Assembly: GCA_016841045.1 (NCBI GenBank)
Contig: JAENZX010000017.1
Location: 1-64,000 of the forward strand
From: Thermincola carboxydiphila
GTDB lineage: Bacteria; Bacillota; Thermincolia; Thermincolales; UBA2595
Direction of reading: 5' to 3'
Length of the DNA stretch: 64,000 bases
The translations under genes were made by a program, and so were the position numbers. The notes beneath the pieces were generated by a model that was not told the origin of the DNA, ran no database searches, and saw only the letters and a program-made list of their open reading frames with translations. Each line of letters starts with the position of its first letter. Position 1 is the first letter of the stretch. Positions 6,748-12,922 of the stretch are shown here, piece after piece.

Positions 6748-7164
6748 ATGAGCGATTACTATTCACAACAATTTGGACCTGGGTTTGGCATTGGTGGAGG
6801 TTTCGGGCCTGGTTTAGGTTTTGGTGGAGGTTTCGGGCCTGGTTTTGGTGGAGGTTTCGGCCCTGGTTTAGGTGCAGGCATGGGTGGAGGATTTGCATTT
6901 GGGTTCTTTGCCAACCGGGCTGCTTTATCCGCCCGTCAGGCAGCAGCTGCTTCCGCTGCTGCAATAGCCGCCTCTAACAGAGGAGACCGGAGAGGCTCAG
7001 CCGCTGCTGCTGCTGCCTCCGCTGCAGCTGCTAATAATGCCGCTGCCGCTGCTGCTGCCGCCGCCGCTTCAGGCAGTGGTGATGCTGCTGCTGCCGCTGC
7101 TGCCGCTGCTGCTGCTGCTGGTTCTGCCGCCGCTGCTGCATCTGCCGCTGCCGCCGCAGGTTAA
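6748..7164 (+). CDS. Silk-like low-complexity Gly/Phe-Ala protein
   Basis: ATG 6748 follows GGGAGGAT. The 138 residues fall into blocks: residues 10-48 repeat GGGFGPG(L/F)G, 49-64 are a short non-repetitive link, and 65-138 are almost pure Ala with Ser and Gly breaks and one RGDRRG patch. This alternation of Gly-rich and poly-Ala blocks is like structural silks and glycine-rich coat proteins; it has no Cys, signal peptide or membrane span. Codon use in the Ala tracts is mixed (GCT, GCC, GCA), so the tract is maintained at protein level and is not simple DNA slippage. The host is a spore former, so a spore surface or assembly role is reasonable but inferred. A small Lys-rich gene follows. Confidence 0.75.
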   Translation: MSDYYSQQFGPGFGIGGGFGPGLGFGGGFGPGFGGGFGPGLGAGMGGGFAFGFFANRAALSARQAAAASAAAIAASNRGDRRGSAAAAAASAAAANNAAAAAAAAAASGSGDAAAAAAAAAAAAGSAAAAASAAAAAG

Positions 7165-11550: not shown

Positions 11551-11690
11551 TTCCTGTTCCTCCATTTATATAATTTGTATGATTGCCTAATTCGACTAAA
11601 CCAAGTCTATTCCTGCAATATACGAATTTATCCCATAACCCGTCTGGATTTTGGCTATACTTGTAAAGAGAAAAACTACGGAGGTTACAT

Positions 11691-12869
11691 ATGTGGGTTT
11701 CGCCCAATTATCAGGAGACTGATTTTTCATGGCCACTGACAACAGACGATAAAATAGAGATCTTCCTTGACAGAACTTATGGATGGCAGTTGGATATAGC
11801 CGATCAGTGCATTAACGGCAAACGCAGCCCGGAAGGGGATATTATTGTCCAGCCAATTGATCATTCCGGCTTTGCAGTTCTCAACATTGTTTTAAGCTAT
11901 TTTGAAATGATAGCCAAATATCAGGACGGTTTTACCCAGCATACAAAATCTGAGTATTATTTTAAGCAAGGACTCTACTCAGTTTTTCCAGACCTAAAAA
12001 AACAGTCCTCGACGATAGCCGATAACCTTTTAGACATACTTTATTACGGCTGCCGCTGCGGTCTTTATCATGGCGGAATGACAGATACAAGTATTGTCGT
12101 TACCGGTGAAACCGAATTTCCGCTGGTGTTTGACTCACATGAACTGCGCCTAAAAATAAACCCACATCTGCTTGTCCCCGCCCTTAAACTTCACCTGGCG
12201 GAATATGGGGCAATGTTGAAAGATAAAACCAACACTGTTTTAAGACAAAACCACGAGAAAAGGTTTGATTTTGATGCATTAACCAGAATGGGTTCGGAAA
12301 GAGAAGCACGGAATGGCTACTACTCAACTTATAGGGACAAGGAGAACAGAAGAGTTTTTGCTCTGCCGGATGTCCTTGGAGAAAAACCCTCTGTTGTTTT
12401 CTGCAATATAGGGGGCAGATCATCACAGTCCAGCGGGTATTACACAGATTCACGGAATCGTTTCTGGATTGTTTTGTTTCGTATTGGATTGATACCTAAT
12501 ACCTTATCTCCTAAAGAATACCGTACTCTGCCCAAATACGGGATAGGCTTGACAGAGCTAAACAAGACCAGCAGGTTTAATAATAAATCAGATTCTGAAT
12601 ACGATTTGGAAGGATTCAGAGCGAAAATTGAACAATATTCCCCCGCGGTGGTCGCTTTTAACGGTAAACGGGCAGCTCAGGAATTATACGGTTATTCAGT
12701 TCATTATGGGCTTCAGCCCGAACCCATAGGTAATTCAACTGTTTTTGTCCTGCCTTCAACTTCAGGGATTGCCCGCAAGTACTGGAACGAGTGGTACTGG
12801 CGGGAACTGGCTGACTATGTGAAGAGCCGTAGAACCAGTGGGGAGTGGGAAGTGGGGAGTGGGGAGTGA
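11691..12869 (+). CDS. HEPN-like domain fused to Mug/TDG-type uracil-DNA glycosylase
   Basis: A 392-residue protein with two parts. Residues about 1-200 are helical and contain YYGCRCGLYHGG, where R122-X4-H127 fits the RX4-6H motif of HEPN ribonuclease-type domains. Residues about 222-380 match bacterial Mug/TDG glycosylases: LPDVLGEKPSVVFC, NRFW (257-260), VVAFNGK, and LPSTSGIAR (354-362), the equivalent of the Mug LPNPSGLSR loop. The GINPG active-site motif is altered to CNIGG; Asn239 aligns with the catalytic Asn only if one gap is allowed. ATG 11691 follows GGAGG. The last 12 residues come from a GGGGAGTG repeat. RNA-and-DNA-directed stress or defence is inferred, not shown. Confidence 0.7.
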   Translation: MWVSPNYQETDFSWPLTTDDKIEIFLDRTYGWQLDIADQCINGKRSPEGDIIVQPIDHSGFAVLNIVLSYFEMIAKYQDGFTQHTKSEYYFKQGLYSVFPDLKKQSSTIADNLLDILYYGCRCGLYHGGMTDTSIVVTGETEFPLVFDSHELRLKINPHLLVPALKLHLAEYGAMLKDKTNTVLRQNHEKRFDFDALTRMGSEREARNGYYSTYRDKENRRVFALPDVLGEKPSVVFCNIGGRSSQSSGYYTDSRNRFWIVLFRIGLIPNTLSPKEYRTLPKYGIGLTELNKTSRFNNKSDSEYDLEGFRAKIEQYSPAVVAFNGKRAAQELYGYSVHYGLQPEPIGNSTVFVLPSTSGIARKYWNEWYWRELADYVKSRRTSGEWEVGSGE

Positions 12870-12922
12870 AAAAAGGCCCCGGGAGAAGACGCGGGCAATA
12901 CCCCACTCACCACTCCCCACTA
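12838..12922 (+). repeat. Self-complementary GGGGAGTG / CACTCCCC repeat
   Basis: The end of the glycosylase gene runs into repeated AGTGGGGAGTG units, followed after 30 bases by CCCCACTCACCACTCCCC; the two can pair as a long stem. It is one of several TAGTG/AGTG-type arrays in gene ends of this window (see 21778, 27298, 38512). Confidence 0.6.

Follow-up and report, generated by a model that had tools for sequence, protein, structure and literature searches.

The window, a 64,000-nucleotide stretch of Thermincola carboxydiphila DNA, carries on its forward strand at 11691-12869 a gene for a 392-residue protein, which is present in the list of open reading frames and has full-length homologues in two other genera. 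A GGAGG ribosome-binding site, read from the sequence, precedes the ATG by 6 nt (11680-11684, forward strand, as are all the features of the gene given below). The first-pass annotation had claimed that a single ORF joins a helical domain to a Mug-type glycosylase, and this proved to be so. Residues 1-200 (11691-12290) make up an all-helical domain, termed HEPN-like here, as judged from an AlphaFold2 model and a 23-member family. Residues 223-385 (12357-12845) constitute a Mug/TDG-type glycosylase domain, placed in the MUG2 class by profile and sequence matches and by a tree. The two are separated by a variable linker (residues 201-222, 12291-12356) that is poorly conserved among the three fusions of this type. 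An intergenic inverted repeat at 12838-12920 (GGGGAGTGGGGAGTG...; folding z-score -5.2), to which no strand was assigned, was also recognized from the sequence and would form a strong hairpin. Its left arm encodes the final residues of the ORF (...SGEWEVGSGE) and the stop codon; the fusion orthologues lack the repeat and terminate without it.

Two more genera of the family also carry the full fusion (the Thermincola MAG L003, equivalent to L006, and G005, equivalent to L007), with an end-to-end identity to the window protein of 64-66%. The locus is conserved: on one side are the comEA region and genes for sulfite-reductase-like, CGGC-domain and methyltransferase proteins, and on the other, in the window and in L031, is leuS. 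Since copies of this identity occupy one conserved locus in other genera, three genera in all, the fusion is neither an assembly accident nor an event confined to a single genome. The window also contains a low-complexity ORF, Gly-rich and then Ala-rich, at 6748-7164, and a similar Gly-rich ORF occupies the matching place, beside the same neighbor genes, in another genus (L031, 949-1461).

For pairs with unsaturated synonymous sites, nearly all of which came from a second group of fusions described below, the glycosylase half had a dN/dS of 0.11-0.18 and the HEPN half one of 0.06-0.09. Synonymous sites were saturated within the window's own group, where the nonsynonymous divergence of 0.16-0.34 was far below the synonymous divergence. 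These low values indicate, at the level of sequence comparison, that both halves are under purifying selection rather than decaying. The degenerate motif I of the glycosylase and the C-terminus of the window copy, which runs into the intergenic repeat, might suggest a decaying or accidental fusion with no function. However, the ORF is intact, with a good ribosome-binding site and conserved sites, and full-length orthologues are present at one locus in two other genera, which makes such a fusion highly improbable. Conservation and synteny likewise led to the rejection of a pseudogene.

The amino-terminal domain had been proposed to carry the HEPN ribonuclease motif, R122-x4-H127 (RCGLYH), and the motif was found at the predicted place (codons 12054-12071), where helix 3 of the model ends. 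It is the sole RX4H within the domain. The pattern arises in 22% of shuffles of the domain sequence, so its occurrence in one sequence is weak evidence. Its conservation carries far more weight: R122 and H127 are invariant in all 23 of those examined, at a median pairwise identity of 24%. Exactly four columns of this alignment are invariant, E72, G80, R122 and H127, and R28 is invariant among all full-length members of the family. E72 begins an E72-x3-K76 motif (11904-11918) that lies in helix 2 according to the model and the family alignment; 7 of the 23 sequences, the window protein among them, have the lysine at +4, and E-x3-K occurs in the fusions.

The homologue searches comprised about 1,950 genome look-ups, mainly in Bacillota, Chloroflexota and Verrucomicrobiota. 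In a sample of 348 genomes from the phylum, the domain was restricted to the three fusions. Unfused relatives were encoded in Chloroflexota and Verrucomicrobiota genomes and on Synechocystis, rhizobial and Persicobacter plasmids, and a scan of a phage collection and viral contigs yielded no relative. Residues 1-200 had no family match in Pfam, NCBIfam and PADLOC.

The AlphaFold2 model of this domain was confident (pLDDT 90.5, pTM 0.87). It consists of helix 1, helix 2 with E72, a helical insert and helix 3 ending in R122...H127, followed by beta strands, helix 4 and one further helix. A plasmid-derived row was omitted from one structure-model alignment. In the HEPN layout described by Anantharaman et al., RX4-6H ends helix 3 and an acidic Ex3[KR] lies in helix 2 (PMC3710099). 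According to the same survey, helices 2 and 3 are separated by an insert, and the motif of Csx1 is directly followed by a beta-hairpin (PMC3710099). The helix order of the model and the placement of E72, R122 and H127 match this layout. As modelled, the domain resembles the HEPN superfamily (DUF4145, PF13643; pEK499_p136, PF18736; Csx1) in the RX4H that ends helix 3, the acidic helix-2 residue and the helical insert, and Csx1 in the hairpin after the motif, but neither profile comparisons nor Foldseek linked it significantly to these proteins.

Specifically, a Foldseek search of the PDB with the model returned no HEPN structure and no match at all. Pfam gave nothing for the window domain, and one homologue matched pEK499_p136 at E 0.11. 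When the domain was compared by hhalign with pEK499_p136, the score was no better than that of shuffles; hhalign with the DUF4145-like domain from the second fusion placed the RX4H motifs of both domains opposite each other, at a score that was not significant. A survey for PF18736 in Chloroflexota gave no match anywhere, not even in the controls, and so carries no weight. A sequence-profile search of the PDB returned a triplicated cytochrome (i-Evalue 50 for each copy) and one weak match, which were taken as chance. Just two BFVD structures came near the model in fold, both of uncharacterized viral proteins: A0A3G2KI42 (Arthrobacter phage Nandita) and A0A0H4TI24 (probability 0.91-0.92, E 0.03-0.04). 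The proposed HEPN identity is supported for the most part: the invariant R122, H127 and E72 and the helix order agree with it, but matches from Foldseek against the PDB, Pfam, NCBIfam and PADLOC are absent. Because matches to HEPN families are absent, the domain is named HEPN-like on the basis of its motif and predicted helix order and is assigned to no named HEPN family.

The glycosylase half matched PF03167 (E 2e-8) and NF007570 (2e-19, under the equivalog cut-off of that model), and its best solved relative was the D. radiodurans MUG (DrMUG, DR_0715, PDB 2c2p, 6e-25). The motifs on which a Mug relationship had been claimed, NRFW (residues 256-259, 12456-12467) and motif II, LPSTSGIAR (residues 354-362, 12750-12776), are present and kept in the alignment. 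As in known Mug structures, NRFW would be the base-stacking region. In the glycosylase tree, this fusion group and the second one fell on the DrMUG (MUG2) side, split from the canonical GxNPG Mugs with support of 100/100. Judged by its sequence, this half belongs to the MUG2 class of the Mug/TDG family.

The second group was found when relatives were searched with the whole window protein. Three other Thermincola-family genera (G001; G002; G004, G007 and G008) encode proteins of 310-341 residues in which the glycosylase domain comes first and a helical domain different from that of the window protein lies at the C-terminus (L010, L011, L012, L013 and L015). The same MUG2-first, HEPN-last architecture occurs in another family of the phylum (G160, locus L052), where G160 is the sole carrier among 46 genomes of its own family. 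The locus is conserved among the sister genera and distinct from that of the window fusion; its neighbors, recognized from sequence, we take to be Fur-like, bshA/bshB-like and MoxR-like genes. The two architectures are mutually exclusive within the Thermincola family, with three genomes having one and five the other, and one genome, 63% complete, having neither.

The C-terminal domain matched DUF4145 at 1e-4 to 2e-3, slightly below the curated cut-off, and carries RN-x-x-FH and E-x3-K. Its model had a pLDDT of 77, and nearly all of the 29 best PDB fold matches were HEPN proteins, including MntA-HepT, TM0613, AF0298 and HI0074 (probability at most 0.99, TMt at most 0.63, E at least 0.14). By predicted fold and by motif, the domain of the sister fusion is HEPN. 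A 769-residue protein of a Streptomyces plasmid (L060, 3144-5453), encoded after a DEAD/DEAH helicase gene, contains DUF7380, DUF4209 and a C-terminal DUF4145-like stretch resembling this domain. In the glycosylase tree, each fusion group formed its own clade. Since the HEPN domains differ, are attached at opposite ends and lie at different loci, the two architectures were formed independently of each other. That a Mug-HEPN fusion arose a second time, in sister genera, is the strongest evidence for a functional pairing.

It was also considered that the amino-terminal domain of the window protein may be some other helical nucleic-acid-binding or dimerization domain, with E, R and H being structural or otherwise catalytic and the protein a repair or DNA-binding factor. 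This would account for the lack of a Foldseek HEPN match and of significant profile comparisons, and the residue after R122 is Cys rather than polar in 18 of 23 homologues. However, the helix order and all three site residues fit the HEPN layout, with the Csx1-like beta-hairpin included, and the domain of the sister fusion is HEPN by fold. A non-HEPN domain is thus unlikely.

The annotation had further noted that the active-site GINPG is changed to CNIGG, with N239 as the catalytic Asn. The change is real, and the eroded motif I (residues 238-242, 12402-12416) was aligned with DrMUG and the unfused MUG2 proteins. However, the alignment rules out N239 as the equivalent of the catalytic Asn, since it lies earlier, beside a two-residue gap. 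Motif I is CGTA.. in the unfused MUG2 proteins and CNIGG, CGAAAG, CSIAG or CANVMG in the fusions. The DrMUG sequence is itself without a motif-I Asn, and its catalytic residue is Asp93 (PMC5128194). The Asp93 column was kept in all eight unfused MUG2 proteins (DrMUG, L008, L009, L072, L073, L096, L097 and L117). In the alignment it was lost in all eight Thermincola-family fusions of both architectures, being substituted in the group with the amino-terminal domain and removed with its whole segment in the group with the C-terminal one; the loop is variable, which brings some alignment risk for single columns, and the segment deletion is free of that risk. The G160 fusion retains Asp93. The FW base-stacking and PSTS motifs were retained in the fusions. 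DrMUG and the window domain thus share a clade and these two motifs, but DrMUG is a single domain with a catalytic Asp93, whereas Asp93 and the motif-I Asn are both missing from the window protein, which has the HEPN-like domain in addition.

The suspicion of an altered glycosylase chemistry is borne out by the sequence and extends further, to the loss of the MUG2 catalytic residue. We infer that the glycosylase half has undergone catalytic loss, although other residues could serve, and the eight Thermincola-family fusions, which have neither the motif-I Asn nor Asp93, are not classed as active glycosylases. Conceivably, the protein is an active repair glycosylase of altered specificity that uses other catalytic residues, the helical domain being a regulatory or nucleic-acid-binding accessory. 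The pocket motifs are kept and under selection, and several UDG-superfamily enzymes, DrMUG among them, use unusual catalytic residues. Such an enzyme is nevertheless somewhat unlikely, given that both known catalytic positions were lost in parallel in two lineages, that precisely the nuclease-site residues E, R and H are conserved in the supposed accessory domain, and that an ordinary Mug with GYNPG is already encoded separately in the genome.

A location in a defence island, as the annotation had envisaged, was not borne out. No defence genes were found among the genes adjoining the fusion, which lies in a conserved housekeeping neighborhood common to the three genera. The unfused relatives of the amino-terminal domain have other neighbors: one adjoins SduA/Shedu (L056), one lies near an RT_III-A reverse transcriptase (L057), one near QatC-like, PD-T7-5 and Lit genes (L065) and one among toxin-antitoxin genes (L022). 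The context of the domain family, a handful of plasmid loci considered with no statistical control, points to defence. On the Agrobacterium and Rhizobium plasmids (L065, 4968-8635; L057, 5974-8707), the unfused gene is followed by two conserved genes, for a 282-aa protein of unknown function and a 387-aa PD-T7-5 protein, and the stretch adjoins QatC-like and RmrA/XRE-like genes. These three genes may be an undescribed defence cassette.

UDG-fold glycosylases, Brig1 and Brig3, provide anti-phage defence (PMC11078745, PMC13160076), and the window protein could similarly be a dual-action enzyme that excises modified phage bases while its HEPN half adds RNA cleavage. The defence genes near relatives of the amino-terminal domain and the Asp93 of the G160 fusion would agree with this. 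However, Asp93 is absent from the Thermincola-family fusions, the locus is vertically conserved with no defence island, and the domain has no relative in the phages and viral contigs scanned, a result that bears weakly on a host defence gene. A dual-action enzyme is therefore quite unlikely. Likened by description, Brig1 and Brig3 are, as here, UDG-superfamily proteins outside canonical repair; unlike the window fusion, they are active glycosylases with no HEPN domain reported and usually lie in defence islands, and Brig3 is described as single-domain. Their genes are reported to adjoin ADP-ribosyl glycohydrolase genes (PMC11078745, PMC13160076). In G053 (L014, 574-2004), a canonical GYNPG Mug domain ends a 477-aa frame, the front half of which resembles ADP-ribosylglycohydrolase. 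As for the window gene, a resident stress checkpoint or a core-genome immune gene fits both contexts, and its vertical retention in a housekeeping neighborhood makes either of these more likely than a mobile defence module.

DNA glycosylases can find an individual wrong base, and RNA cleavage by HEPN domains leads to a halt of the cell or the death of infected cells. The fusion may be a single-chain sensor-effector in which a pseudo-glycosylase senses abnormal DNA and thereby governs a HEPN RNase, an interpretation to which we give slightly less than an even chance. A protein that reads with one half and acts with the other is suggested by the two joinings, the loss of Asp93 in both and the conservation of the base pocket. 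Moreover, apart from one Gly, the invariant residues of the amino-terminal domain are just the ones that a HEPN RNase site should have, and a separate canonical Mug is available for repair. The purifying selection, the defence neighborhoods of unfused relatives and the sensor-HEPN precedents given below also favor it. The G160 fusion, with its Asp93, speaks against it, in that a dead glycosylase is not general in Mug-HEPN fusions, and so do the lack of significant fold and profile matches of the amino-terminal domain to known HEPN proteins and the lack of defence genes beside the fusion. The glycosylase half would scan DNA and bind or flip an abnormal base, with little or no excision. This base could be uracil or a deaminated or modified base, perhaps within invading DNA. 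Base binding, or a resulting change in a dimer, would free the HEPN-like half for RNA cleavage, which would lead to growth arrest or abortive infection while the DNA is damaged or foreign.

Sensor-HEPN designs have been proposed for CARF-HEPN and AbiJ proteins (PMC3710099), and protection by the CBS-HEPN protein DS-11 has been shown by experiment (PMC13092281). In CARF-HEPN (Csx1/Csm6), AbiJ and DS-11, a putative sensor and a HEPN RNase are in one chain, as here. Their sensors, however, read nucleotides or unknown signals, whereas the partner in the window protein is a DNA-base-binding glycosylase fold. No description of a glycosylase-HEPN fusion was found in the main texts of the open-access literature. 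Within the literature searched, the fusion is apparently a variant of the single-chain sensor-HEPN design with an unreported type of sensor.

The recurring pairing suggests an undescribed switch, in which RNA is cut upon abnormal DNA. More tentatively, there may be a class of RNases triggered by the state of DNA that evolved at least twice in one family, by the joining of different HEPN domains to opposite ends of MUG2, each time with loss of the catalytic residue. An unnamed HEPN-like family in plasmid defence neighborhoods is also brought to light. That the catalytic Asp disappeared in parallel from two separate fusions is a natural experiment in the conversion of a repair enzyme to a sensor, and the two fusions make testable the idea that base-flipping domains can act as pure readers. 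If the sensor-effector interpretation is correct, the protein would connect a single abnormal base straight to growth arrest, and no signaling molecule would be needed in between.
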